From: Collinsella bouchesdurhonensis
GTDB taxonomy: Bacteria > Actinomycetota > Coriobacteriia > Coriobacteriales > Coriobacteriaceae
NCBI RefSeq assembly: GCF_900155365.1
Contig: NZ_LT699742.1
Span: 1 to 64,000, forward strand
Length of the DNA stretch: 64,000 nt
Direction: 5' to 3'
Numbering within the stretch: position 1 is the stretch's first letter; every line of letters begins with the position of its first letter. The translations under genes were made by a program, and so were the position numbers. Shown here in pieces: positions 5,915 to 29,659 of this stretch. Under the pieces are notes generated by a model. It worked only from the letters and a program-made list of their open reading frames with translations, was not told the origin of the DNA and did not search any database.

Positions 5915-7198
5915 CTAGTCGTCAATAGGATCGGGGACGGTGACGCGCTCCACATGCGCCCCCAGCTCTACGAGTTTTTTTACGAAGTGCTCGTATCCAC
6001 GGTCAATGTGATGGATAGCAGAAACCTCAGTCGTGCCGTCGGCAATAAGGCCAGCGACGGCAAGCGCAGCGCCGCCGCGCAAATCGGGAGAGGTGACCTG
6101 AGCGCCTGAGAAGCCCTTGACGCCATGAATCATGGCGTGGTGGCTCTCGATGCGAATATTTGCCCCCATGCGCACAAGCTCAGAGGCGAACATGAAGCGA
6201 TTCTCGAAAATGTTCTCGGTGATGACAGAGCTGCCATCTGCCAGAGCGGAAAGAACCATAACCTGAGCCTGCATGTCGGTGGGAAAACCCGGGAACGGCA
6301 AGGTCTGGATGTCCACCGGGCGAATGGTATCAACGCGGTACACGCGCACACCGCCCTCGATGCGCTCAAAATCGATGCCCATGAGCTCGAGCTTTTTAAG
6401 AACCATGCCTAAATGGTGCGGAGCGAATCCAACCACCTCAACACCGGCATCGCCAGCCATCAAAGCGCCCGCAACGATAAAGGTGCCAGCTTCGATGCGA
6501 TCGCCAATCACGCGATGCGTAACAGGATGCAACTCAGAGACGCCCTCGATCGTAACGACAGGGGTTCCGGCGCCGGTGATCTGGGCACCCATCTCGTTGA
6601 GCATGTTAGCGAGGTCAACGATCTCGGGCTCGCGCGCGGCGTTATCGATAACCGTGGTGCCCTTAGCGCGAACCGCTGCCATGATGAGATTCTCCGTGGC
6701 GCCTACGCTCGCAAACTCAAGCGTAACGGTCTCGCCGTGCATTCCCTCGCCGGCGTCGGCATAGATATAGCCATGCTCGGTATCGAACTTCACGCCCAGG
6801 GCCTCAAGACCCAGAATATGCATATCGATCTTGCGAGCACCCAGGTTGCAGCCGCCGGGCATTGCGATTTTCGCCTTGCCCATACGGCCCAACAACGGAC
6901 CGAGGACCGCCGTAGACGCGCGCATTTTGGCAACGAGTTCGTACGGCGCTTCCCACTGATCGACAGCAGAAGTATCGATAGCCAGACTATGCTCGTCCAC
7001 GACCTCGATCGTGGCACCCATGCCCTTAAGAACCTTGCCCATCACGTGTACGTCGGAAATATTGGGCACATTGGTAAGGGTGGTTTTGCCCGGAGCAAGC
7101 AAGGTTGCAGCCATGAGCTTGAGCGCAGAGTTCTTAGCGCCCGAAACGCACACGCGTCCCTCGATCGGATGACCACCTTCAACGCGGATGATATCCAA
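5915..7198 (-). CDS. murA: UDP-N-acetylglucosamine 1-carboxyvinyltransferase
   Basis: MurA transfers enolpyruvate from PEP to UDP-GlcNAc, the first committed step of peptidoglycan synthesis. The protein shows the EPSP-synthase-like fold signatures, including the N-terminal SGAKNSALK and the PGGCNLGARKID region. The active-site loop position reads MPGGCN, so the PEP-binding Cys is present. The start is taken as TTG at 7198 (427 residues, normal for MurA) because AAGGGG lies six bases upstream and the mature sequence begins DIIRVEGG. A longer ATG frame from 7255 would have to encode the hairpin and T-run that terminate the atp operon, so I reject it. Confidence 0.95.
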   Translation of the reverse strand: MDIIRVEGGHPIEGRVCVSGAKNSALKLMAATLLAPGKTTLTNVPNISDVHVMGKVLKGMGATIEVVDEHSLAIDTSAVDQWEAPYELVAKMRASTAVLGPLLGRMGKAKIAMPGGCNLGARKIDMHILGLEALGVKFDTEHGYIYADAGEGMHGETVTLEFASVGATENLIMAAVRAKGTTVIDNAAREPEIVDLANMLNEMGAQITGAGTPVVTIEGVSELHPVTHRVIGDRIEAGTFIVAGALMAGDAGVEVVGFAPHHLGMVLKKLELMGIDFERIEGGVRVYRVDTIRPVDIQTLPFPGFPTDMQAQVMVLSALADGSSVITENIFENRFMFASELVRMGANIRIESHHAMIHGVKGFSGAQVTSPDLRGGAALAVAGLIADGTTEVSAIHHIDRGYEHFVKKLVELGAHVERVTVPDPIDD

Positions 7199-7211
7199 AC
7201 CTGTCCCCTTC

Positions 7212-7244
7212 AAAAAAAGGCCCGAGAGCACAAGTCTCCCGGGC
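7212..7244 (-). terminator. Terminator of the atp operon
   Basis: Minus-strand RNA forms a 9-bp stem (7236-7244 with 7220-7228, one G-U pair) followed by seven U residues. It lies between the atpC stop and the murA TTG start, separating the two transcription units. Confidence 0.85.
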
Positions 7245-7287
7245 ATGATGTCCATCGCATTGTTGGCAGAGGATAAATCCTCAGTAC

Positions 7288-7680
7288 CTATTTTGCAAGC
7301 AGCAGCTTACACCATGCGATTTCATTATATAGGTAGGCGCGACGCGCATCGTCTTCCGACAGATTCCTCAGGTTGTCTTCAAAACCTTGAAGTTCAACCT
7401 TAACCTTCTCGGCATCGACATCCGCCAGATCGCAGGCCCGCTCGGCCAGCACGATAACGGTGTCGTCGGCAATTTGAGCATAGCCGCCGCCCACCGCAAA
7501 CGTGTGGTCGACCGTGCCCATCTCCTTGTCACACACGCGCACGTAACCGTCCGTGATGGTACAGATCTCGTTCGCGTGCTTGGGAAGGATGCCGCACTCG
7601 CCGTCCGTAGAGGGCACGACCGCAAAGGCAGCCTCGCCCTCATAGGCACAATGTTCCGGACATACGATACGGATGAGCAT
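7288..7680 (-). CDS. atpC: ATP synthase F1 subunit epsilon
   Basis: The 130-residue subunit has the N-terminal beta-sandwich (VPSTDGECGILPKHAN, the typical xGxxGILPxH region) and a short helical C-terminus that can regulate the enzyme. It is the last gene of the atp operon; its ATG is two bases past the atpD stop, and GGGGAGAAG in the atpD end serves as ribosome site. Confidence 0.95.
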   Translation of the reverse strand: MLIRIVCPEHCAYEGEAAFAVVPSTDGECGILPKHANEICTITDGYVRVCDKEMGTVDHTFAVGGGYAQIADDTVIVLAERACDLADVDAEKVKVELQGFEDNLRNLSEDDARRAYLYNEIAWCKLLLAK

Positions 7681-7683
7681 GGC

Positions 7684-10046
<2,363 letters not shown>

Positions 10047-10051
10047 AGAGC

Positions 10052-11656
10052 CTAGTTCTCCTCGGCACCGCTATTGCTCGCAGAAGTCTCTGCAAGCTTT
10101 GCGGTGTAGTCGTTCTTGAAATCGGAGATCGCCTGCATGAGCTGGTCGTCCAGCTCATCGTCGATCTTCGCGGAGCGCAGCTTGTCGAGAAGCGGCGCAT
10201 AGGTCTTGGTCATGTAGTCGAGAAGCGCGTTACGGAACGGCAGGACCTGGGAGACCGGGAGGTCGTCCACAAAGCCCTTATTGCCGGCGAAAAGCGCAAC
10301 GATCTGCTCGGTAACATCAAACGGCTTGAAGCGCGGCTGCTTGAGCAGCTCGGTCATGCGGGCACCGTGGGTGAGCTGCTTTTGAGTGGCAGCGTCCAGG
10401 TCGGAACCAAACTGCGTAAAGCCGGCGAGCTCGCGGTAAGCGGCAAGGTCAAGACGCAGCGAACCGGAAACCTGCTTCATTGCCTTGGTCTGAGCGGAGC
10501 CACCGACGCGGGACACCGAGATGCCAACGTCGACTGCGGGGCGCTGACCCTGGAAGAAGAGCTCGGACTGCAGGTAGATCTGACCATCGGTAATGGAAAT
10601 AACGTTGGTCGGAATGTAGGCGGAAACGTCGCCGTCCTGGGTCTCGATGATCGGCAGAGCCGTCAGGGAACCATAGCCGTTCTTCTTGGAGAGCTTGCAG
10701 GCACGCTCCAGCAGGCGGGAGTGCAGGTAGAAGATGTCGCCGGGGTAGGCCTCACGTCCGGGCGGACGATGCAGCGTCAAGGACATCTGGCGGTAAGCGA
10801 CAGCCTGCTTGGACAGGTCGTCATAGATGACCAGCACGTGACCGCCGGGGTTATCCTCGGAAGCAGGCTCGCCATTCTCGCCGTTATACATGAAGAACTC
10901 GCCGATTGCGGCACCGGCCATAGGCGCGATGTACTGCATAGGAGCGGAGTCTGCAGCGGTAGCGGAAACAATGACCGTGTAGTCAAGAGCGCCGTGCTGC
11001 TTGAGGGTCTCACGGATGTTTGCAACCGTCGATGCCTTCTGACCGATGGCGACGTAGATACAAATCATATCCTTGCCGCGCTGGTTCAAGATAGCGTCGA
11101 TGGCGATAGCGGTCTTACCCGTCTTACGGTCGCCAATGATAAGCTCACGCTGGCCACGGCCAATGGGGATCATCGAGTCGATGGCGAGAAGACCGGTCTG
11201 AACCGGCTCGCACACCGGAGTGCGCTCGATAACACCAGGAGCCTTGAACTCAATGGGGCGCGTGTGGGTGGCGCGAATCTCACCCAAGCCATCGATAGGC
11301 TGACCCAGCGGATTCACGACACGGCCGAGCATGGCACGGCTTACAGGAATGTCCATGATGCGGCCGGTGGTGCGGCACTCGTCGCCTTCCTTGATGATGT
11401 CGACCGCGCCAAAAAGCACGGCACCGACCTCGTCGCGGTCAAGGTTCTGGGCCAGACCGTAAACGGTCTCACCAGTTTCGCTGCTCTTGAACTCGAGCAG
11501 CTCGCCGGCCATGGCGCCACGCAGTCCGGAGACGCGGGCGATACCGTCGCCGACTTCGTCAACATGGGAAACCTCCTGCGTGTCAACGGTCGCAGACAGG
11601 CTGTCGAGTTTCTCGGCCAGTGCGGCGGCAATGCTTTGAGCATTGATCTCTGACAT
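10052..11656 (-). CDS. atpA: ATP synthase F1 subunit alpha
   Basis: The 534-residue nucleotide-binding but mostly non-catalytic subunit has the P-loop [22 protein letters not shown] and the signature [27 protein letters not shown] precedes the ATG at normal distance, within the end of atpH. The C-terminal 25 residues are variable and acidic. The gene lies in standard order between atpH and atpG. Confidence 0.99.
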
Positions 11657-19753: not shown

Positions 19754-19787
19754 CAAAAAGCCCGGCTGCCAAGGGACAACCGGGCTC
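19754..19787 (-). terminator. Terminator at the distal end of the PTS islet
   Basis: AGCCCGG (19759-19765) pairs with CCGGGCT (19780-19786), followed on the minus strand by five U residues. It follows the GntR-type gene. Its sequence is almost the same as the terminator at 28502-28533 at the other end of the islet. Confidence 0.85.
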
Positions 19788-19816: not shown

Positions 19817-20536
19817 CTAGAGATCGAGCATGTAGCGCGAGCCAATAAAGTATTGACGGCCAATATAGACAGGCTTGTCATCTTGGTCGAGAGCATATGT
19901 CGTAATGTACAGCAGCGGCTCGGAAACAGGCACCTGTAAACGGCCCGCACGCTCGCTCGACGCGCCCATGGCTTCGACCAGAACCTTCTGGTTCTGTACC
20001 GGCTTCCTTCCATAAAATTCGTCCAGCAGCTCATAGAGCGAATTTCCCTGAAGGTCGCACCTTGCGAGCTCCTTGTTCTCAACGTAGGGAAGACACATGT
20101 TCTCTTCGAATATGGGCTGCTCATCGGCCGTACGCAGGCGCTGAACATGCAAGACAAGGTCGCCCTCATCGAGCCCAAAGAACTCGCGCTCGTCCTGGCG
20201 AGCAACAACGATTTCACGATTAATGAGCTTTGCACCAGGAACGCGGCCGCTCTTGCGACAAATCTCACTGAAGCTCTGGGGCAGGCCACCTTGCAGCAGC
20301 TTCCTGCGCATGCGCGGTTCGCAAACAAACGTGCCCAAACCACGTCGCTTTACCAAAAAACCTGCCGCGCTCAGATCCTCGATCGCGCGCCGCACCGTAA
20401 TGCGACTCACGGCGTACTTGGTCGATAGCTCCGTCTCGGTTGGGATCTTATCCCCCGGAACATATATGCCGTTGTCAATAGCATGCTTAATCTCGTCGTA
20501 TATCTGTTGATACAGCGGCATCTCAAGCTGGCTCAT
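19817..20536 (-). CDS. GntR-family (HutC/UTRA) transcriptional regulator
   Basis: This 239-residue regulator has an N-terminal winged helix (PLYQQIYDEIKHAI, then PTETELSTKYAVSRITVRRA) and a C-terminal UTRA ligand-binding domain of the HutC subfamily, which usually senses a sugar or amino-acid metabolite. It lies immediately downstream of the PTS/dehydrogenase operon, on the same strand but after a tandem terminator, so it has its own promoter. Repeats GGTCATAT / ATATGACC in that promoter region are candidate operators. Its ligand is probably an intermediate of the adjacent pathway. The ATG at 20536 follows AGGAG. Confidence 0.93.
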   Translation of the reverse strand: MSQLEMPLYQQIYDEIKHAIDNGIYVPGDKIPTETELSTKYAVSRITVRRAIEDLSAAGFLVKRRGLGTFVCEPRMRRKLLQGGLPQSFSEICRKSGRVPGAKLINREIVVARQDEREFFGLDEGDLVLHVQRLRTADEQPIFEENMCLPYVENKELARCDLQGNSLYELLDEFYGRKPVQNQKVLVEAMGASSERAGRLQVPVSEPLLYITTYALDQDDKPVYIGRQYFIGSRYMLDL

Positions 20537-20596
20537 GATGTTCAAACTCCTCACTCGGCAGCAGCTCGCTTGCCGCTTGCATGCCCCATAATACAA

Positions 20597-20634
20597 GGTC
20601 ATAAGGTCATATTATCCTCGAAAGGTATATGACC
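20597..20634. promoter_or_regulatory. Candidate operators upstream of the GntR-type gene
   Basis: GGTCATAT (20605-20612) and ATATGACC (20627-20634) form an inverted repeat with a 14-base spacer, and an extra GGTCAT lies at 20597-20602. The right half also reads GGTATATGACC, a GGT-N5-ACC pattern like HutC-family sites. Autoregulation is inferred. Confidence 0.45.
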
Positions 20635-20648
20635 AATCGAACGGTACG

Positions 20649-20712
20649 AAAAAAGAGCCCAAGGTCATGGGCTCAATGCCCGAGGCGCGCAAGACGACGC
20701 GCGCCTCGGGCA
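20649..20712 (-). terminator. Tandem terminator of the PTS operon
   Basis: Minus-strand RNA first forms a perfect 14-bp hairpin (20699-20712 with 20677-20690). It is followed by a second hairpin (GGGCTC 20669-20674 with GAGCCC 20655-20660) and six U residues. Together they separate the operon from the regulator gene. Confidence 0.85.
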
Positions 20713-20725
20713 ATAGCAAGATGAG

Positions 20726-21697
20726 CTATGCGACTGCCTCGGTGATCTCGAGGCGCGTGAGCTCGGCATCGAGCAGAGCGATATCCTCGTCGCTCAGGCT
20801 CCACTCAAAGGCGGCACAGTTCTCCTGAGCCTCGGACACCTTGCGAACGCCGGTGAGCGCGGTGGAGACAAAGCTCTTCTGCGTGCTCCAGTTAATGGCG
20901 ATCTGGGCCAGCGGCTTGCCATACTTTTCGCTCAAGACGTCCATGGTCTTGAGGAACTCCTGAATCTTGGAGAACATAGGCTCCTGATAGAACGGATAGA
21001 AGGTAGCGCGGAAGTCCTTCTCATCGAAGTTCGGCTTCTCGCGCACGGCGCCGGTAAGGATGCCTGCACCCAAAGAACCCCACGTCATGACATCGATGTC
21101 GTTCTCCTCGCACCACTTGAGGTCGGAGAGGGCAGACTGGTTGACCATGGAGAACGGAAGCTGCACGATGTCGATATCGGCAACGGCGCTTGCACGCTCG
21201 ATGAGGGCCCTATCGGAGTTGCACAGGCCGAGCATGCGAACCGCGCCCTGCTCCTTGAGCTTGTTGACGCAAGCCATCGTATCCTCGATGGGAGTGCCCA
21301 GGTCGTCGGGCCAGTGCATGAGGTACATGTCGACGTAATCGGTGTTCAGGCGCTTGAGCGATGCGTCGAACTCACGCAGGACCGAATCGGGACGGCTGCA
21401 GTGAACGCCCTTACCGTTCTCGATGTAGGAGCCGTACTTCGTGGCAATCAAAACCTTGTCGCGGATACCCTCGATAGCCTTGCCAACGACCTCCTCGGAG
21501 TGGCCCTCGCCGTAGATGGGAGCGGTATCGATCAGGTTGACGCCGCCATCGATCATGGCCTTGATTGCCTCGATGGAATCCTGGTCGTCAATCTCGCCGT
21601 AGCCGCCGCCCATGCTGTTCTTGCCGCCGATGGCCCACGTACCGACGGTGATAGCAGAGATCTTCTCGCCGGATTTTTTCATTGTCTTGTAACGCAT
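20726..21697 (-). CDS. Aldo/keto reductase
   Basis: This 323-residue NAD(P)H-dependent (beta/alpha)8-barrel oxidoreductase has the catalytic tetrad readable as Asp (NLIDTAPIYG), Tyr (same motif), Lys (ATKYG) and His (LMHWPDD). It is the last gene of the PTS operon; its ATG overlaps the region of the alcohol dehydrogenase stop, and AGGAGG lies seven bases upstream. It probably reduces or oxidises a sugar or polyol intermediate, but the substrate is not readable. Confidence 0.92.
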   Translation of the reverse strand: MRYKTMKKSGEKISAITVGTWAIGGKNSMGGGYGEIDDQDSIEAIKAMIDGGVNLIDTAPIYGEGHSEEVVGKAIEGIRDKVLIATKYGSYIENGKGVHCSRPDSVLREFDASLKRLNTDYVDMYLMHWPDDLGTPIEDTMACVNKLKEQGAVRMLGLCNSDRALIERASAVADIDIVQLPFSMVNQSALSDLKWCEENDIDVMTWGSLGAGILTGAVREKPNFDEKDFRATFYPFYQEPMFSKIQEFLKTMDVLSEKYGKPLAQIAINWSTQKSFVSTALTGVRKVSEAQENCAAFEWSLSDEDIALLDAELTRLEITEAVA

Positions 21698-21699
21698 TG

Positions 21700-22743
21700 T
21701 TAGTCCTCCTGGCACTGAACGCTGATTCGATACATTCCGGGCTTGCATGCCTCTTCAAAGGCCTCTTGGATCTTATCCAGAGGAATCTTCTCCTCGACAA
21801 GCTGGGAGAAGTCAGCTGCGCCCATGTTGATCATCGAGGCGGCCTCGCGGAAGTCGACAGCGTCGGCACCGTAGGAGCCCACGATGACCATGCGGCGATA
21901 GTGCACGGTGTTGGGATCGAGCTCCCACTTGGGTGCCGGGTATCCTGCTGCGAAGATAAGCAGGTGGGCGCGCTTCTCCTTGGCCATCTCGAGAGCCTGG
22001 GCATAAGCGCCCGAAGCACCAACGGCGATGATGACGCCGTCTGCGCCCTTGCCGCCGGTAAGCTCGCGAACCTTCTCCACCGGATCGCACTTGGAAACGT
22101 CGATGGTCTCCAGGCCGAGCTTCGCTGCGGTCTCGAGCTTCTTGGGCATCATCTCGGTGATGATGACGCGGCAACCATGCGCCTTGGCAACCAGAGCGTT
22201 GAGAACGCCCATGGTGCCTGCACCGATAACGACAACGGTCTGGCCGTACTCGATGCCAAAGCGGCGGAAGCCGGCGCAGCAGGTGCCCAAGGGCTCAAGA
22301 AGGGCGGCCACGGAAGGATCGATGCCCTTATCGATCTTGTAGCAGGCAACTTCCTTGGCAACGGCGTAGTTGGCGCAGCCGGCGTTGCCAAAATAGCCAT
22401 CCGGGTTGGGGTGATCGGCGCTTTGCAGCTTGGTGCACTCGCTGGTGCGGCCCTCGCGGCTGGGCTCCGAATAGGGGTCGTACTGGTAACCGCTCGCGAT
22501 GTAGTCGCCTACGGCAACGCTGTCGACCGCAGAGCCGACCTCGACCACGGTACCTGCCCACTCGTGTCCAAACACCAGGGGAAGCGGACGCTTGCGTGCG
22601 CCGTTAAAGGCACCGTATTCGGACGTGCAGATGTTATTCGCATCGATCTTGACCAAAACGTCGTGCTCGCCCAGCTCGGGAAGCTCGCGATCGATCACCT
22701 CTGCCGTCTCAACCGCAGTGAGTACAGCTGTTTTTGCTTTCAT
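21700..22743 (-). CDS. Zinc-type alcohol/polyol dehydrogenase (medium-chain family)
   Basis: This 347-residue medium-chain dehydrogenase has catalytic-zinc ligands Cys39 and His60 (GHEWAG) and the LLEPLG glutamate. The nucleotide site is GAGTMG. The four-cysteine structural zinc lobe of classical alcohol dehydrogenases is not evident. Sorbitol dehydrogenase and the sorbose-1-phosphate reductase SorE belong to this superfamily. With the PTS and the MtlD-like gene next door, a ketose-phosphate/hexitol-phosphate reaction is the likeliest role, but this is inference. Confidence 0.9.
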   Translation of the reverse strand: MKAKTAVLTAVETAEVIDRELPELGEHDVLVKIDANNICTSEYGAFNGARKRPLPLVFGHEWAGTVVEVGSAVDSVAVGDYIASGYQYDPYSEPSREGRTSECTKLQSADHPNPDGYFGNAGCANYAVAKEVACYKIDKGIDPSVAALLEPLGTCCAGFRRFGIEYGQTVVVIGAGTMGVLNALVAKAHGCRVIITEMMPKKLETAAKLGLETIDVSKCDPVEKVRELTGGKGADGVIIAVGASGAYAQALEMAKEKRAHLLIFAAGYPAPKWELDPNTVHYRRMVIVGSYGADAVDFREAASMINMGAADFSQLVEEKIPLDKIQEAFEEACKPGMYRISVQCQED

Positions 22744-22789
22744 GGTTTCCTCGTTTTCAGTCGTTGGTATTGGTTATTACAGCCGTCGG

Positions 22790-23965
22790 TTATTCGGCGG
22801 CTCGAAAAGCGATATCGGCGTGCTGCTTGGCGACAAGATCGAGCAGCATCCATTCGTCTTCGCCAAGCGAACAGATCTCGCGAGCGTAGGCGCGCACCGC
22901 CGCGTCGTCTTTAAGCTCCACACCCTGCTCGGCTGCAAGACAATCAAGTCCGTAGGCGATACCGCGTGCGAGATAGAACGGGACGATTCCGTGCCGCAAG
23001 CACATCAGAGCCGGGCCAACGAAGCGGTTATCGTGTGACAGCTTCTCGTCGGTCTTTGCGATAACGCGATCGACCGGGTCTTTGACGTCGGCATCGAGCT
23101 TGGAGTAGATGAATTCCACCCACTCGGCGTCCTCTGCCGGATCAAAGGAGTACTCCTGCACGATGGCTGCGTGAGCCTCCTCGAACGCCGCCACGATGTT
23201 GGCGCGGATCCACGGATCCTTGTGGCAATCGCAAATGAACTCGTGACCAGCGGCCTTGCCCATAAAGCCGGCCATAGCATGGCGCATATTGCCGCAATAG
23301 ACCTTGCGGTAGATATGGCCTTGGGCACCACGGATGAAAGAGACGCTCTCGATCTGAAGCTGCGGGCCCTTCCAGGCATCCGCGTCAATCTCCAGTCCGG
23401 GATTCGCAGAGACAACTACCTGCCAGGGGTTGGCGTCTGGGTCGCTCGGAATGCCGGCGGCGAGAACCATGACCTGGCAAACGCCCACATGCTCACGGAA
23501 ATACGCGAGGTATTCCTCGGCAAGCTCGCCCTCGATATACGAGACGACCTTTGCGGGAGCGCCCAAAGCATTCACGCACAGCAGGATATTGAGATCGCGC
23601 TCGTTCCCGGATGCATGGCGCTGGGAGACAGCCTCGGCAATCACGCGGGCGAGGCTCTTGAATGCCCCCTCGTACACACAGCACGCAGCGATGTCTACGC
23701 TCTGAAGAAGAGCAATGGCCTCGGTGTCGGTGGTGCTATCGACGATATCGAAGTCGTCGATGCGCGTGGACTCGTCAACATCATGGCCGTCGGTCACGCG
23801 GACGTCGTAGTAGCCCTGCGCCTCAAGCTTGCGCATACCTTCCATGTACATGTCGTACAGGTGCAGGCGGTATCCTGCGCGGGAGAAGAGCAGGCCGACG
23901 ACTCCCCTGCCGATCTTTCCCGCACCGAGAATCGCAATCTCACGCGGGGATTCTTCAGTCGACAT
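22790..23965 (-). CDS. Mannitol-1-phosphate 5-dehydrogenase-like polyol dehydrogenase
   Basis: The 391-residue protein belongs to the mannitol dehydrogenase superfamily. It has an N-terminal Rossmann domain (ILGAGKIGRGVVG, close to the MtlD consensus) and a helical C-terminal domain with catalytic Lys, Asn and His in KVYCGNMRH. MtlD oxidises mannitol 1-phosphate to fructose 6-phosphate with NAD+. No mannitol-specific PTS is present here, so the natural polyol phosphate may differ. The ATG at 23965 is ten bases past AAGGAGG; a TTG three codons upstream is too close to the ribosome site. Confidence 0.88.
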   Translation of the reverse strand: MSTEESPREIAILGAGKIGRGVVGLLFSRAGYRLHLYDMYMEGMRKLEAQGYYDVRVTDGHDVDESTRIDDFDIVDSTTDTEAIALLQSVDIAACCVYEGAFKSLARVIAEAVSQRHASGNERDLNILLCVNALGAPAKVVSYIEGELAEEYLAYFREHVGVCQVMVLAAGIPSDPDANPWQVVVSANPGLEIDADAWKGPQLQIESVSFIRGAQGHIYRKVYCGNMRHAMAGFMGKAAGHEFICDCHKDPWIRANIVAAFEEAHAAIVQEYSFDPAEDAEWVEFIYSKLDADVKDPVDRVIAKTDEKLSHDNRFVGPALMCLRHGIVPFYLARGIAYGLDCLAAEQGVELKDDAAVRAYAREICSLGEDEWMLLDLVAKQHADIAFRAAE

Positions 23966-23989
23966 AAGATTCAATCCTCCTTATGTCGC

Positions 23990-24829
23990 CTAAGCGATGA
24001 TGCCCAGGAGACGGAGGATGACGCCGACGACGAGCAGGCCAAGCAGAAGAGGGATCACATTGACCTTCTTCTTAGCAAGCAGCCAGTAGCACAGCAGCAC
24101 GAGGCCAAGCGGCAAGATCTTGGGGCACACAGCGTCAAAGAGGCTCTGAACCAGGGTGGGGTCGCCACCTGCCGCGTTCGGGATGGTGAGGGCGCAGGAA
24201 AGGTTGACGTTGAACGCCGTCATGGCGCCGATGGCAGCAAGGCCGATAACGCTCGCAGCGTAGGAGATCTTCTCCATGATGCCCGAGGACTCAGCCTGCT
24301 CGAGCAGCTTAGTACCCATGCTGTAACCGCTCTTGAGCGACCACCAACGGCAGATAAACTGGGGAATGTTGAAGATCAACAGGAAGAGGATCGGGCCCAG
24401 GATGTTGCCGGCAGAAGCCATGCTGATCACGACGGCCGTCGCGATAACGCGAAGCGTCGCGTGGAAAAGCGTGTCGCCAATGGCGGAAAGGGGACCCATA
24501 AGAGCGGTCTTGATACCGGTGATCGTCGCGGTATCGAAGTCATCGTCCGCGGCGTTTTGCTCTTCCATAGCAAGAACGACGCCCAGAGGCAAACCGCCGA
24601 GATACGGGGTCACGTTGAAGTACTCGTTCATATGACGCTGGTAAGCATCGATGCGCTTCTCTTTGTTGTCCGCGTAGATCTTCTTGAGCGCCGGGATGAT
24701 GGAGTAGGTAAATCCAGCATGCATCTGGCCCGGATAGTCGTTCATGCCGTTAAGGTGGATGTAGCGACCGTAAATCTGCGTCAAGTCTTTGTTCGTGAGC
24801 TTGCCGTTCGTGGTCTGATTAGAACTCAT
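23990..24829 (-). CDS. PTS mannose/fructose/sorbose-family IID component
   Basis: This 279-residue membrane component of a mannose-family PTS begins with a cytoplasmic helix bundle (LTNKDLTQIYGRYI, then MQGxGF-like MHAGFTYSIIPAL) and has the family motif TGIKTALMGPLSAIGDTLF. The C-terminal half is strongly hydrophobic. The start at 24829 overlaps the IIC stop by 11 bases and has AAGGTG six bases upstream. Confidence 0.94.
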   Translation of the reverse strand: MSSNQTTNGKLTNKDLTQIYGRYIHLNGMNDYPGQMHAGFTYSIIPALKKIYADNKEKRIDAYQRHMNEYFNVTPYLGGLPLGVVLAMEEQNAADDDFDTATITGIKTALMGPLSAIGDTLFHATLRVIATAVVISMASAGNILGPILFLLIFNIPQFICRWWSLKSGYSMGTKLLEQAESSGIMEKISYAASVIGLAAIGAMTAFNVNLSCALTIPNAAGGDPTLVQSLFDAVCPKILPLGLVLLCYWLLAKKKVNVIPLLLGLLVVGVILRLLGIIA

Positions 24830-25589
24830 TGTCATCACCTTCATCAGCAGTAGAAGTAGCGGGGTTCTCGTTGCGGCTCACCAGGATGAGCACGACGCCT
24901 GCAGTGGCCAGAGCGGTTACTGCGATTACGGGGAGCTGCAGGTAGGCAGCGAGGATGAATCCGATAAAGAACCAGGGAGCAAGCTTCTTGTCCATAATCA
25001 TGGACAGCAGCAGGGCAAAGCCCACGGCGGGAAGCAAGTTGCCGCCGGATGCCAGGCCGTTAATCACATCGGTGGGGATAGCGGAGACTGCAGACTCGAG
25101 CGCGGTGCTTCCAAAGAAGACGGAAAGGAAGCCGATCAAGAAGTAGAGGCCAAAGGTGCCAACCCAGCTACCTGCCCAGAACAGGGCGCGGGCAGCCTTA
25201 TCGTTATCCTTGGCAAGCTGCGCCTTCATCGCCTCGGCAAAAGCGTTGTTGATGAACTTGCAGAGCACGAAGGCAAAGCCACCGAGAAGTGCCAGGGGCA
25301 CAGCGAAGGCGGTGCCCACCGCGGTGCCAGCGCCGGTAAGAATGGCAAACGCCGTCGAGACGCCAGCAGCGGTACCACCGTCGGGGGAAACCGCGGCACC
25401 AACCGGGAACGAACCGAGGAAGACGATCTCGAGCGTGGCGCCGATGATCGTACCGGTCACGGGGTCGCCCAAAACGAGACCCATGATAGCGCCCTCAACG
25501 ATGGGGCGATTGAACATGCTGTAGCCAAAGAAGTATTCCATCTTGGAAAGACCGACTACCAAGCCAGCAAGCAGAGCTTGTACGAGCAT
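24819..25589 (-). CDS. PTS mannose/fructose/sorbose-family IIC component
   Basis: This 256-residue permease component is mostly hydrophobic with the family features of ETIxxG-like LEIVFLGSFPVGAAVSPDGGTA. It forms the sugar channel together with IID. Its ATG overlaps the epimerase stop by one base (TAATG), so translation is probably coupled. The C-terminal tail is acidic. Confidence 0.94.
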   Translation of the reverse strand: MLVQALLAGLVVGLSKMEYFFGYSMFNRPIVEGAIMGLVLGDPVTGTIIGATLEIVFLGSFPVGAAVSPDGGTAAGVSTAFAILTGAGTAVGTAFAVPLALLGGFAFVLCKFINNAFAEAMKAQLAKDNDKAARALFWAGSWVGTFGLYFLIGFLSVFFGSTALESAVSAIPTDVINGLASGGNLLPAVGFALLLSMIMDKKLAPWFFIGFILAAYLQLPVIAVTALATAGVVLILVSRNENPATSTADEGDDNEF

Positions 25590-26419
25590 TACCGTTCACA
25601 TCCTTTCAGGACAGAGAGTGCGCGAGCAAGGACTTCGCGCGGGTTATTAAAATAGGAGGGACAGGTCATTTCGAGAGCGCAATCGCCGTCAAAACCGTGT
25701 TGGATCAAGGAGTTCACGATGCGTGCGGCGTCAAGGATGCCGTGCTCGTCTCCCCAGGCCAAGTGTGCGAAAACGCTCGGGTCGAGATTTGTCAGATGCA
25801 CGTAGCCGATCTTTGTTTCGAACTGCTCGAGATAATCCTCGAGGTCTTCTCCGCCGCGGGCAATCGTTCCGGTATCCAGCGTCACCTGCAAATTGGGACG
25901 GTCGATATCGGAAAGTGCCTGTGCCATCGAGCCACGATCGGTAAGTAGGCGATATCGCTTGGGCGTAAGGGTTTCCAGGCAAACGTCGATTCCCTGCTCC
26001 CCCGCGATATCGCAAATCAGTCCGATGCTTGAAACCATGTTGTCCCAAGCCTTTGAAGGATCTTCATCGAGCGAAAACCAGCCGCCGTTTATCGATATGC
26101 GAGAACAGTCCAACATTCCCGCCAGGCGAACAATTTGCCGATAGTAACCTTCTGTTAACCGCTTGATATGGCAATCCGAAGACATGATGTTGTAAGCTTT
26201 TGGATTACCCTGTTCGGGGGTTAACGTGCGTACGCGCACCCTGTGCTTCCGGAGCCCATCAACGACTGCTTTGGCGTTGTAGATATCGTGAGCGTCGATA
26301 TCTACGTGGTTATTGCACAACCACAAATCGATATCGCGTGTTCCCGTGGCTTCGATATCTCGCAAACAGGTATCGAAGCTCCAATAACGCCAAATCTGGT
26401 TGGTGGGCAGGAAGCGCAT
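25589..26419 (-). CDS. Sugar isomerase/epimerase of the xylose isomerase-like TIM-barrel family
   Basis: This 276-residue TIM-barrel protein has the metal-ligand pattern of ketose 3-epimerases: Glu in CLETLTP, Asp in TLDTGT, His in VHLTN and Glu in ALEMT. The TPE...YNIMSSDCHIKR stretch resembles FrlC, the fructoselysine 3-epimerase. A role epimerising the sugar or sugar phosphate brought in by the surrounding PTS is likely, but the substrate is unknown. TAAGGAG precedes the ATG. It is placed between aldolase and IIC genes. Confidence 0.85.
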   Translation of the reverse strand: MRFLPTNQIWRYWSFDTCLRDIEATGTRDIDLWLCNNHVDIDAHDIYNAKAVVDGLRKHRVRVRTLTPEQGNPKAYNIMSSDCHIKRLTEGYYRQIVRLAGMLDCSRISINGGWFSLDEDPSKAWDNMVSSIGLICDIAGEQGIDVCLETLTPKRYRLLTDRGSMAQALSDIDRPNLQVTLDTGTIARGGEDLEDYLEQFETKIGYVHLTNLDPSVFAHLAWGDEHGILDAARIVNSLIQHGFDGDCALEMTCPSYFNNPREVLARALSVLKGCER

Positions 26420-26430
26420 GGAATTACTCC

Positions 26431-27291
26431 TTAAGCCTTGCCGACGCAGCCGAAGACATGCATGTAGTGCTCGAGCGCGGCCTTGTAGCCATCGGCACCG
26501 ATCATGTCGTACTGCCAGGAGCTGATCTTCTTCTTATCGGGATCGACATCGGGAGCGTAGTCTGCCTCGATAGCCTCCTTGACCGCCATGTTGGAAGCCT
26601 GGGAGAGGTCGGTCCAGAGGTTGACCTTCTGAATGCCGCACTTAATGGCCTTGGCAATCAGATCGTCACCGGTGCCGGAACCGCCATGCAAAACCAGCGG
26701 CACGTCGACGCTCTTAGCGATCGTCTCGAGCAGCTCGAACTCGAGGTGCGGGGTGCCCTTGTAAGCGCCATGGGAGGTGCCGACGGCAACTGCCAGGCAG
26801 TCGACGCCCGTCTCCTCGACAAAGGAAACTGCCTCTTCAGGATGGGTCAAGCCAGCGTCACGAGTCTGCTCGTACTCGACGCCCTGACCAACATGACCCA
26901 GCTCGGCCTCGACGGAAACGCCGACGGCGTGAGCGATCTTCACGATCTCTTTGCTCTCTGCGACATTTTGCTCGTAGGGAAGCGTGGAGCGGTCGACCAT
27001 AACGGAGGAGAAACCAGCGCGGATAGCGCGGATGAGGTGCTCGAACGGGCCGCCGTGGTCAAGGTTCACGGCAAACGGAACGCGCGGATACTTGCGCTCG
27101 TAGTAACGAGCGAGCTCGCCGACTTCCTCGATGCCAAAGACACCGGGGCAGCCAAGAATCACCGGGGCATTGAGCTCATCTGCAGCCTGCAGTGCAGCCT
27201 CGATAGTAAAGCGATTGTAGACATTGGGAGCGGGGATTCCGTAGCCGCCCTTTTTCGCTTCCTGCAGAAGCTCGTGCATCGGTTCCATCAT
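26431..27291 (-). CDS. Class II fructose/tagatose-bisphosphate aldolase family protein
   Basis: This 286-residue zinc aldolase has the family signatures NLDHGGPFEHLIRAI (zinc His and catalytic Asp), VEAELGHVGQG, AVGTSHGAYKG and VLHGGSGT. Such enzymes cleave a ketose bisphosphate into dihydroxyacetone phosphate and glyceraldehyde 3-phosphate. It resembles the GatY/KbaY/FbaA group, but no sugar-phosphate kinase is encoded in the operon. It could therefore depend on a kinase elsewhere, or act on a monophosphate. AGGGAG lies eight bases before the ATG. Confidence 0.92.
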   Translation of the reverse strand: MMEPMHELLQEAKKGGYGIPAPNVYNRFTIEAALQAADELNAPVILGCPGVFGIEEVGELARYYERKYPRVPFAVNLDHGGPFEHLIRAIRAGFSSVMVDRSTLPYEQNVAESKEIVKIAHAVGVSVEAELGHVGQGVEYEQTRDAGLTHPEEAVSFVEETGVDCLAVAVGTSHGAYKGTPHLEFELLETIAKSVDVPLVLHGGSGTGDDLIAKAIKCGIQKVNLWTDLSQASNMAVKEAIEADYAPDVDPDKKKISSWQYDMIGADGYKAALEHYMHVFGCVGKA

Positions 27292-27368
27292 GATAGGTTC
27301 TCCCTTTCTTTCTTAATGCGCATCGCGCATGTGAACCGCATTGAATACGTGCGTGTATCGTTACTTGA

Positions 27369-27830
27369 TTACTTGTAGAGCTCTTTTTTCTCTGTTGGCA
27401 CCTGGCGAATCTCGAGCTCGACGCCGTTTGCAGCCAGCTCGTGCAGCTCGTCCTCTTCCTCCGGAAGAAGGAAGATCGCCTGGCTTACCTGGCGAGCGCC
27501 CTCGCGATTCTTGATGCCGCCAAGGTTGATGCTCTTGATCTCGGGCACGGCGTCGCAGATGCGCTTGGCGTCGGCCACGCTGCCCGTGACGATGAACAGC
27601 TTGTACTTATCGGTAACGCCGCTCTGGAGCGCCTTGATGCTGTCGTCGATGGACTTGACGACAAGCTTCACGCCCTGGGGCTTTGCCAGACGTAGCGTAG
27701 TCATCTTGAGGCTGTTCGTCGTGGCCTCGTCGTCTGCCACAAGAATGCAGTCGGCACCGATGGACTTGGTCCACGAGAATGCAACCTGACCGTGAAGAAG
27801 CCTGTGGTCGATTCGGAACAACTTGATCAT
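27369..27830 (-). CDS. PTS mannose/fructose/sorbose-family IIB component
   Basis: This 153-residue cytoplasmic phosphotransfer protein carries the phosphorylatable His13 in RIDHRLLHGQV, the signature of mannose-family IIB proteins. It passes phosphate from IIA to the sugar during uptake. GGAGG is present upstream of the ATG. It lies 11 bases downstream of the IIA gene. Confidence 0.95.
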   Translation of the reverse strand: MIKLFRIDHRLLHGQVAFSWTKSIGADCILVADDEATTNSLKMTTLRLAKPQGVKLVVKSIDDSIKALQSGVTDKYKLFIVTGSVADAKRICDAVPEIKSINLGGIKNREGARQVSQAIFLLPEEEDELHELAANGVELEIRQVPTEKKELYK

Positions 27831-27841
27831 GGTTTTGCCTC

Positions 27842-28288
27842 CTAAAACTCGTTAAGTTCAGCCAGCTGGTCGTCTGCCGCGGCTGCTGCCTTGGCTTCAA
27901 CAAGCTCGTTGCACAAAACGATGTGCTCACGAGCGTGTTCTACGATCGACGGCAGGTTCGCGGTCAGATCCTCTGCGGGACACGTGACAACCTCGAACAA
28001 AAGCGCTAGGTTAATGCCGGTAATAAGATGGAAGTTGTACTTGTCGAGCAGGCCCATGAACTCGTTGTTCACCGAGCCGCCCAGGATATCGGTCAGCACG
28101 ACGAGCTCCGCATGCTCGTAATCGTGCTCGGAGACGATCTTCTCCAGCTTGTCTTGGTAATCGACGCTCAAATCGACATATGCCGTGATGCACTCAACAG
28201 GAACAGCGTCGCCAAAGATCATCTTGAGCGACGAGGCGATGCCCTCCGAGAACATTGCATGCGTGGCGATTACGATTCGCTTCTCCAC
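27842..28288 (-). CDS. PTS mannose/fructose-family IIA component
   Basis: This 148-residue protein accepts phosphate from HPr on His10 in IATHAMFSEGI, the family position. LTDILGGSVNNEF is also characteristic. It is a separate IIA rather than an IIAB fusion. The start is GTG, eight bases after GGGAGGG. It is the first gene of the nine-gene operon. Confidence 0.94.
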   Translation of the reverse strand: MEKRIVIATHAMFSEGIASSLKMIFGDAVPVECITAYVDLSVDYQDKLEKIVSEHDYEHAELVVLTDILGGSVNNEFMGLLDKYNFHLITGINLALLFEVVTCPAEDLTANLPSIVEHAREHIVLCNELVEAKAAAAADDQLAELNEF

Positions 28289-28501
28289 CGTTTTGTCCCT
28301 CCCAAATGAACCGAACTCGTAGTTACGGCCCCCATAGCTCGTAACCTCGTGTTCATCTGGTATGTACTATACGTCTATAACGTTTCAGATATTACGGGTA
28401 CCGGTCAGCGGTCGAATAAAGATGATGAACGGCATGCGAACATCTGGGCACTTAAGGATCCTGTTTAACGAATCCCCTGCTAGATAGTTTATTTTTGGCA
28501 T
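28289..28501. promoter_or_regulatory. Leader region of the PTS operon
   Basis: The stretch between the IIA start and the prfA terminator holds no gene. On the minus strand TATAGT (28365-28370) is a possible -10 element, without a good -35. It lies within a symmetric sequence that reads GGTATGTACTATACG on the plus strand (28360-28374) and is loosely like the candidate GntR operator at 20624-20634. Both assignments are tentative. Confidence 0.3.
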
Positions 28502-28533
28502 AAAAAGGCCCGGCTGCCGTGGGGCAACCGGGC
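28502..28533 (-). terminator. Terminator of prfA
   Basis: GCCCGGCTGCC (28508-28518) pairs with GGCAACCGGGC (28523-28533), with one mismatch, and is followed on the minus strand by five U residues. It differs from the terminator at 19754-19787 mainly in the loop. Confidence 0.85.
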
Positions 28534-28591
28534 GGGTGGCGGACATTTCGCCAAATACAGTTGTTATATCGCGCATTTCTCCGCGCGAACC

Positions 28592-29659
28592 TTAGACAGC
28601 CTGCGCGAGCTTTTCGGCACGGTCGGCGGCGGCGAGGGCGTCAATCACCGTGACGAGCTGATCGCCCAGCAAGACGCCGTTATAGGTGGAGTTGAAGCCA
28701 ATACGGTGATCGGTCACGCGGTCCTGCGGCTGGTTGTAGGTGCGAATCTTCTCCGAACGGTTGCCGTGGCCAATCTGACTCGAACGCTCGGCACCAAGCT
28801 CGGCCTGCTGCTTTTCCAGCTCCATCTCGTACAAACGGGCACGAAGCATCTGCATGCAGACCTCGCGGTTCTGGATCTGCGAGCGCTGCTCCTGCGACTG
28901 CACCACGGTGTTGGTGGGCAGGTGCGTGATGCGCACGGCGGAATACGTGGTGTTAACGCACTGGCCGCCAGGACCGGAGGCGCAATAGGTGTCGATGCGA
29001 AGATCGGACTGGTTGATCTTGATGTCGATCTCGTCGGCCTCGGGCAGCACGGCGACGGTCGCCGTCGAAGTCTGGATGCGACCCTGGCTCTCGGTCTTGG
29101 GGACGCGCTGGACGCGATGCACGCCGGACTCATACTTCATAACGGAGTACACGCGATCGCCCGTCACCTTGAACTCGATGGACTTGAAGCCGCCGGCCTC
29201 GGACGGGCTGGAATCGAGCACTTCCATCTTCCAGCCGCGCGACTCGATAAAGCGCTGGTACATCTTAAAGAGGTCGCCCGCAAAGATGGCGGCTTCGTCG
29301 CCGCCGGCAGCGGAGCGAATCTCGATGATGGTGTCTTTGTCGTCGTTGGGGTCGCCGGGGATGAGCATGAACTTGATGTCTTCCTCAAGCTGCGGAAGCT
29401 TTGCCTCGTTCTCGGAGATGTCCATCTGGAGCATCTCTTTCTCATCGGCATCGGTCGCCTCGTGCAGCATCTCCTTGGCGGCCTCGATGTCGTCGAGTGC
29501 AGCCAGGTACTCGCGGGCGGCGCGCACAAGATCGGTTTGATGCGCGTACTCCTTGTTGAGACGCGTAAATTCTTTGATGTTGGAGGCAACAGAGGGGTCT
29601 GCCAGCTTCTTTTCGAGCTCTTCGTAGGCAGCGATGAGCTTCTCGAGTTTGTCGCGCAT
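28592..29659 (-). CDS. prfA: Peptide chain release factor 1
   Basis: The 355-residue release factor reads UAA and UAG stop codons. It has the ribosome-catalytic GGQ motif in SGPGGQCVNTT, whose Gln is the target of PrmC, and a PxT-type recognition tripeptide (RVPKTESQGR), which marks RF1 rather than RF2. Length is normal. In many bacteria prmC follows directly; here the two are 9 kb apart. Confidence 0.97.
   Translation of the reverse strand: MRDKLEKLIAAYEELEKKLADPSVASNIKEFTRLNKEYAHQTDLVRAAREYLAALDDIEAAKEMLHEATDADEKEMLQMDISENEAKLPQLEEDIKFMLIPGDPNDDKDTIIEIRSAAGGDEAAIFAGDLFKMYQRFIESRGWKMEVLDSSPSEAGGFKSIEFKVTGDRVYSVMKYESGVHRVQRVPKTESQGRIQTSTATVAVLPEADEIDIKINQSDLRIDTYCASGPGGQCVNTTYSAVRITHLPTNTVVQSQEQRSQIQNREVCMQMLRARLYEMELEKQQAELGAERSSQIGHGNRSEKIRTYNQPQDRVTDHRIGFNSTYNGVLLGDQLVTVIDALAAADRAEKLAQAV

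Follow-up and report, generated by a model that had tools for sequence, protein, structure and literature searches.

What does a bacterial operon degrade if it joins the IIA, IIB, IIC and IID subunits of a mannose-family phosphotransferase system (PTS) to a class II aldolase, an epimerase-like protein and three oxidoreductases, and how does it do so with no kinase of its own? The question is raised by a 64,000-nucleotide stretch of Collinsella bouchesdurhonensis DNA (contig NZ_LT699742.1, positions 1 to 64,000; hereafter the window), in which the nine genes lie on the minus strand and are transcribed from 28288 to 20726, with a GntR/UTRA regulator gene next (20602-19817). We tentatively read the locus, with slightly less than even confidence, as an aldolase-centred catabolic operon for a polyol (or a rare ketose), to which an MtlD-like dehydrogenase and the epimerase form an added branch. 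The reading is based on gene content, gene order, conservation, catalytic residues, a shared operator-like site and related loci, and from these we infer the substrate class, the position of the phosphate, the order and direction of the reactions and the role of each enzyme.

The identical ten genes (the nine operon genes and the regulator gene) occur in identical order in four further complete Coriobacteriales loci: L018, L019, L020 (the same as L015) and L021 (the same as L016). The comparison of gene set and order across Coriobacteriia for which the initial annotation had called bears out its single nine-gene operon, and the coordinates that it gave (20726-28288) are right. A partial cassette (L017, genome G030) comprises the last seven genes on a 7979-base contig of a metagenome-assembled genome, cut inside the epimerase gene. 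Over 7979 bases, L017 and L016 (from bacterium OL-1) share 99.9% identity although L017 is assigned to another family, an identity that reflects either mis-binning or very recent transfer; L017 was therefore dropped as independent support, leaving five independent loci, the window included.

Matches to the MtlD-like protein at E 1e-3 are present in 13 of 297 genomes of the order, six of them (the window's own included) at 68% identity or more and the other seven at 21-32%, while matches to the epimerase at 1e-20 are present in 60 of 396 genomes of the class, the same six at 52% or more and the other 54 at 23-32%. The aldolase is at least 85% identical in five of the six carrier genomes, the sixth being G030, with its truncated contig. 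In a phylum-wide sample of 396 genomes, an MtlD match at 1e-50 was found only in the window's own genome, the other carriers seemingly lying outside the sample. Coverage beyond Actinomycetota consisted of an exact 8-residue peptide scan of genome contigs, which returned three loci, all in Coriobacteriales, but neither of the known carriers G074 and G138, and of a plasmid collection, which yielded no match of at least 60% identity.

Conservation is uneven among the ten proteins. Specifically, identity to the window in the four complete loci is 85-87% for the aldolase, 79-90% for the zinc dehydrogenase and 73-90% for the aldo/keto reductase, and these three enzymes are better conserved than the other two, the MtlD-like enzyme (65-75%) and the epimerase (52-59%, the lowest of all); IIA (61-66%) and the regulator (62-70%) do not exceed the MtlD-like enzyme. 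In the single pair L019 versus L021, the ratio of nonsynonymous to synonymous substitution rates (dN/dS) lies at 0.03-0.07 in seven genes and rises to 0.14 in IIA, 0.19 in the MtlD-like enzyme and 0.23 in the epimerase. In this one pair, then, all ten genes are under purifying selection (dN/dS 0.03-0.23), with the MtlD-like enzyme and the epimerase constrained least. The epimerase gene also differs in composition, having a third-position G+C of 0.60 in the window, versus 0.70-0.81 in the eight remaining operon genes; in each of the four orthologous loci its codon score (26-36) ranks below those of the nine other genes.

No kinase gene is present among the ten genes in any of the five complete cassettes, as the initial annotation had stated for the operon; for the aldolase it had accordingly offered a choice between a kinase encoded elsewhere and a monophosphate substrate. 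The aldolase (26431-27291, minus strand; F_bP_aldolase, 3e-85) retains the metal and catalytic residues of its family (alignment, by eye). We compared it in three alignments, comprising 19 sequences (14 of the window's group, YdjI, GatY, KbaY, and the collection aldolases L028 and L029), 22 sequences (FbaA and the genome's own aldolases L098 and L099 added) and 23 sequences (the genome's own L100 added). The DPR-motif arginine (R332 of Escherichia coli FbaA, Met counted) is present in FbaA, GatY, KbaY and L098. It is absent from all five orthologs, being W in the window and C in three others, and none of the 14 aldolases in the window's group has it, W, C, Q, N or Y standing there instead. The position is L in YdjI, which is annotated as a 1-phosphate aldolase, and F and D in L028 and L029. 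The loss of the arginine favours, at the level of sequence, a ketose-1-phosphate (monophosphate) over a bisphosphate as the probable substrate, which would explain the absent kinase; the PTS phosphorylates the substrate itself, so that no kinase is needed for that step.

Related loci indicate which enzymes accompany aldolases of this type. At least nine further Coriobacteriia loci (L083-L091; E 1e-60 threshold, six candidates per genome scored) carry a relative of the aldolase that is 40-63% identical over the called proteins; the stretches span 18-20 kb, and their genes are codon-scored calls, which may miss some. These loci resemble the window in having a mannose-family PTS nearby in six of the nine (L086-L091; partly on the opposite strand in L087 and without IIA in L088) and a zinc dehydrogenase in six (L083-L085, 47-49% identical to the window's; L089-L091, about 30-31%), and an iron alcohol dehydrogenase is present in seven (L083-L085 and L088-L091). 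They differ in that tblastn at E 1e-3 detected no homolog of the MtlD-like enzyme, the epimerase or the aldo/keto reductase in any of the nine stretches, and in their varied regulators: DeoR-type in L083, RpiR-like (below the cut-off) in L086, Sugar-bind in L090, and GntR-type genes, 30-36% identical to the window's regulator, within the L087 and L088 stretches. This pattern suggests a shared core in which transport is combined with oxidation, aldol cleavage and reduction of the aldehyde. Since seven of the related loci have an iron alcohol dehydrogenase and none a homolog of the reductase, the window's reductase would take the place of the iron alcohol dehydrogenase. L083-L085 have no PTS homolog in the stretch and contain a Cof-type HAD phosphatase; L083, for example, which is a second aldolase locus in the window's own genome, contains at 6016-11182 (C15 86016-91182) the phosphatase, an iron alcohol dehydrogenase, the zinc dehydrogenase (49%), the aldolase relative (63%) and a DeoR-type regulator. 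D-2-hydroxyacid dehydrogenase genes are present in two of the nine (L087, 7945-9015; L088, 11056-12129), and the substrate of these two loci may thus be a sugar acid.

The related loci also bear on the direction in which the zinc dehydrogenase (21700-22743, minus strand; ADH_N, 1e-16, and ADH_zinc_N, 2e-19) works. The initial annotation had paired it, as a SorE-like reductase, with the MtlD-like enzyme as oxidase. In such a sorbose-type pathway the PTS would deliver a ketose-1-phosphate, the zinc dehydrogenase would reduce it to a hexitol phosphate, the MtlD-like enzyme would oxidise that to a ketose-6-phosphate, and the epimerase would adjust C3 before glycolysis. The mannose-family PTS and both dehydrogenases are indeed present, with catalytic residues intact, which speaks for this pathway. 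The pairing itself is weakened, as the zinc dehydrogenase accompanies the aldolase without an MtlD homolog in six of the nine related loci, and reduction of a ketose phosphate would there be a dead end; oxidation would thus be the more economical course in those loci, and we carry it over, provisionally, to the window's enzyme. The sorbose-type pathway, moreover, leaves the aldolase and the reductase without roles, although together with the zinc dehydrogenase they are the best conserved enzymes. We regard it as rather unlikely.

On the aldolase-centred reading, the operon would work as follows. The PTS would import the substrate and phosphorylate a terminal carbon, the zinc dehydrogenase would form a 2-ketose-1-phosphate by oxidising the hydroxyl adjoining the phosphorylated carbon, the class II aldolase would cleave this by a retro-aldol reaction to dihydroxyacetone phosphate and an aldehyde such as glyceraldehyde, and the aldo/keto reductase would reduce the aldehyde to an alcohol, recycling NAD(P)H. 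The added branch would serve another stereoisomer: in the simplest case, the MtlD-like enzyme would convert its polyol phosphate to a ketose-6-phosphate, and the 3-epimerase would convert that to the C3 epimer, for example fructose 6-phosphate. A broader proposal is possible but held with less assurance, namely that gut Coriobacteriales have a hitherto undescribed two-branch pathway for rare hexitols or ketoses, in which the sugar 1-phosphate formed by the PTS is cleaved directly by an aldolase of a distinct, monophosphate-specific clade and an MtlD-like enzyme and a ketose-phosphate 3-epimerase rescue the second stereoisomer, and in which this aldolase clade, with interchangeable dehydrogenases and reductases, defines an operon family across the class.

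The residues and family assignments of the other enzymes are compatible with such roles at the level of superfamilies. All the NCBIfam equivalog cut-offs listed for the operon proteins are missed, and one subfamily cut-off, by the aldolase, is reached. The MtlD-like enzyme (22790-23974, minus strand, TTG start; Mannitol_dh, 3e-14, and Mannitol_dh_C, 5e-11, both above the cut-off) has N135, K224, N229, H232 and a GAGxIGRG motif invariant, E. coli MtlD included, and scores 158.6 bits against its best NCBIfam model, the mannitol-1-phosphate 5-dehydrogenase equivalog (cut-off 356). Its K-x4-N-x2-H pattern, which we take to be the signature of the polyol-specific long-chain dehydrogenase superfamily, places it by sequence in that superfamily. 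The zinc dehydrogenase has C39, H60, E61 and E150 invariant and scores 68.8 bits against the galactitol-1-phosphate 5-dehydrogenase equivalog (cut-off 550). The aldo/keto reductase (20726-21697, minus strand; Aldo_ket_red, 1e-67) has D57, Y62, K87 and H128 invariant. We assume the usual metal and catalytic roles for these residues. A distant MtlD relative (26%), annotated as hypothetical, lies among mannose-family PTS genes on an Enterococcus avium plasmid (L027, 5922-10640), together with a protein that has a weak, sub-cut-off match to the mannose-6-phosphate isomerase cupin domain.

The epimerase-like protein (25589-26419, minus strand; AP_endonuc_2, 1e-22) is predicted to have a xylose-isomerase fold. 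E149, D182, H208 and E250 are invariant in the alignment, a Glu-Asp-His-Glu set that is presumably the metal site of xylose-isomerase-like metal-dependent epimerases. An AlphaFold2 model (four input sequences, one of them partial) has a mean predicted local distance difference test score (pLDDT) of 78.6 and a predicted template-modelling score (pTM) of 0.83, and Foldseek places UlaE (3cqj, L-xylulose-5-phosphate 3-epimerase) first at E 1e-14, with ketose 3-epimerases in the next rows. The modelled fold matches the phosphate-using UlaE, among others, and in the proposed branch the epimerase would act on a ketose-6-phosphate. The label 'FrlC-like' given earlier holds at the superfamily level and not as FrlC, the protein scoring 70.9 bits against the fructoselysine 3-epimerase equivalog (cut-off 305) and being 22% identical to E. 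coli FrlC. That weak similarity, together with a C. aerofaciens PTS locus (L030) that has a distant epimerase relative (27%) and three SIS-domain proteins, speaks for a pathway for glycated amines (Amadori products) in which the protein epimerises fructosamine. Unlike the C. aerofaciens locus, however, the ten conserved genes, to which the search for deglycases was confined, include no SIS-domain deglycase, and Amadori chemistry needs neither an aldolase nor three oxidoreductases. We therefore set this pathway aside as best reading and consider it very improbable.

Several observations weigh against the aldolase-centred reading. The aldolase reaches the cut-off of the cbbA ketose-bisphosphate aldolase subfamily (TIGR00167; 238.4 bits, cut-off 215.6). 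A KKK run just before the DPR position in the window, the four orthologs and L083-L085 might accommodate a second phosphate, or else a carboxylate, in place of the arginine. The position is K in the genome's own Aga-type aldolase L099, and it is H in L100. The argument presumes that the DPR arginine contacts the 6-phosphate (R331 of mature FbaA). Among the related loci, L086 has a PTS and the aldolase and no recognised oxidoreductase, L087 lacks the iron alcohol dehydrogenase, and the closest relatives of the aldolase and zinc dehydrogenase together (L083-L085) are without a PTS, the loci with a PTS having a zinc dehydrogenase only 30-31% identical. Finally, VIA-align with the epimerase model gives many isomerases tied near Z 25, so that the modelled fold does not discriminate between isomerases. 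Given the KKK run and the lysine of L099, we rejected the loss of the arginine as proof of a monophosphate substrate. The passages of PMC5434028 that were consulted make no mention of the arginine. L100, at 8951-9838 (C14 194951-195838 of the genome), is a fifth PF01116 aldolase and is 37% identical to E. coli YdjI.

The subfamily score and the nearness of the KKK run to the phosphate site speak for a galactitol-type pathway, in which oxidation of a polyol phosphate yields a ketose-6-phosphate, a kinase encoded outside the operon adds the second phosphate, and the aldolase is a true bisphosphate enzyme. In its favour, too, the aldolase shares 41-42% identity with KbaY and GatY, and the best-scoring models for the PTS subunits are Aga-type or general mannose-family ones; yet the arginine is missing in every ortholog, the cassettes contain no kinase gene, and the equivalog cut-offs for fructose- and tagatose-bisphosphate aldolases are both missed (TIGR01859, 251.8 bits, cut-off 343.05; TIGR01858, 231.9 bits, cut-off 443.55). 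We judge the galactitol-type pathway unlikely, though less so than the other rivals. A further possibility is that the substrate is a longer sugar acid, an octuluronate for instance, processed as by E. coli Ydj enzymes with the PTS in place of a transporter and kinase; a carboxylate bound by the KKK run would fit this. The window shares the trio ydjG, ydjI and ydjJ (reductase, 32% identical; aldolase, 40% over 236 residues; zinc dehydrogenase, 25%), YdjI also lacks the arginine, and two related loci have 2-hydroxyacid dehydrogenases. The reductase, however, falls far short of the YdjG equivalog (182.9 bits, cut-off 550), and the ydj cluster has neither an MtlD-like enzyme nor an epimerase; we hold this pathway to be improbable. 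The monophosphate alternative for the aldolase, set in the aldolase-centred pathway, thus stays the favoured one, with the caveat of the KKK run.

The remaining genes of the operon encode the separate PTS subunits, which belong to the Man/Sor class and all score above the Pfam gathering threshold: IIA (27842-28288, GTG start; EIIA-man, 2e-14), the first gene in all five complete loci (61-71% identical); IIB (27369-27830; PTSIIB_sorb, 2e-48), which contains DHRLLHGQV, presumably the phospho-His motif; IIC (24819-25589; EII-Sor, 4e-63), whose top NCBIfam model is AgaW (159 bits, cut-off 300, missed); and IID (23990-24844; EIID-AGA, 4e-90), all on the minus strand. All nine reading frames are open, and their Pfam assignments agree with the families named in the initial annotation. 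The aldo/keto reductase most likely starts at 21697 rather than 21748, judging from the conserved N-terminus, which begins at 21697. The regulator gene (19817-20602, minus strand) lies 3′ of the operon in all five complete loci, and its product has GntR (2e-20) and UTRA (1e-27) domains; its start is probably near 20536. Scans of the window for tRNA genes and for Rfam families at the gathering score were both negative.

A candidate operator, the imperfect palindrome GTTATAGACGTATAGTAC (28364-28381, minus strand), lies 5′ of IIA in all five loci. The number of mismatches to the pattern GTAATAGACGTATATTAC upstream of IIA is 0 in L019, 0 in L020, 1 in L021, 2 in the window and 3 in L018. The pattern was read from the compared loci themselves (phylogenetic footprinting), and the 0.45 sites per shuffle found at up to 4 mismatches in 20 mononucleotide shuffles of the window is to be read with this derivation in mind. 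A similar half-site is present 5′ of the regulator gene in L018 and L019 and, by eye, also in L020 and L021. The GntR/UTRA protein would repress the operon via the palindrome 5′ of IIA. A consensus scan of 20500-28700 found no sigma-70-like promoter. A terminator-like hairpin lies between the reductase and regulator genes (20655-20674, minus strand; terminator scan), just after a larger inverted repeat rich in G+C; the region has seven terminator-like sites in all, near the shuffled mean of 6.2.

In the window the operon sits between prfA and prmC, flanked by two copies of a 26-base terminator hairpin. One, the prfA terminator and outer copy of the repeat, lies at 28508-28533 (minus strand; terminator scan), and the second, with the same pattern and orientation, lies 3′ of the regulator at 19760-19785 (minus strand). 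With up to 3 mismatches allowed, the hairpin occurs at these two sites alone in the whole 1.88 Mb assembly. Among 26 relatives with a match, prfA loci were obtained for 11, each a Collinsella, and in 10 of the 11 the prmC match starts about 0.2-0.65 kb from prfA, G074 having none within the flank. We read this arrangement as insertion of the cassette at the prfA terminator, with duplication of the terminator. The other copies have other neighbours, namely an NMT1-type ATP-binding cassette (ABC) transporter and FeoB near L018, an RsgA-like GTPase near L020, and in L019 a GlpK-YwlC-PrmC side in common with the window and an AAA-ATPase gene on the opposite side. We propose that the operon is transferable. 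A transposase remnant adjoining the L018 copy, seen by eye, had no Pfam match and was rejected.

Collinsella and its relatives are widespread in the gut, and few of their carbohydrate pathways have been assigned with any certainty. If the monophosphate reading is true, the actual substrates of an aldolase clade recognised by fructose- and ketose-bisphosphate aldolase models would be other sugars, and the PTS operons that contain it could be assigned jointly; if the pathway is true, it would provide a plausible route for rare dietary polyols in a gut bacterium. Both the aldolase and the enzymes that accompany it are small and soluble, and so open to assay.

Each of the known systems matches the cassette in part. 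The E. coli galactitol (gat) operon likewise combines a PTS, a zinc dehydrogenase (GatD) and a class II aldolase (GatY), but its PTS belongs to another PTS family, GatY keeps the DPR arginine, GatZ is present, no MtlD-like enzyme, epimerase or reductase is encoded, and GatD is 22% identical to the window's zinc dehydrogenase. The L-sorbose operon has, as here, a mannose-family PTS and a zinc dehydrogenase acting on sugar phosphates; its SorD is a short-chain enzyme and not MtlD-like, and it is not known to have a dedicated aldolase or aldehyde reductase. The ydj cluster provides the reductase, aldolase and zinc dehydrogenase, with a putative transporter and kinase versus the PTS here; since the ten cassette genes include neither a kinase nor a non-PTS transporter, they do not make up the ydj gene set. 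The frl and glycated-amine operons share an AP_endonuc_2-family epimerase and, in C. aerofaciens, a mannose-family PTS, and differ in carrying SIS-domain or deglycase genes. In keeping with the initial annotation, which knew of no system with exactly this set, none was found in the open-licence literature, and the gene set is a new combination of known parts.

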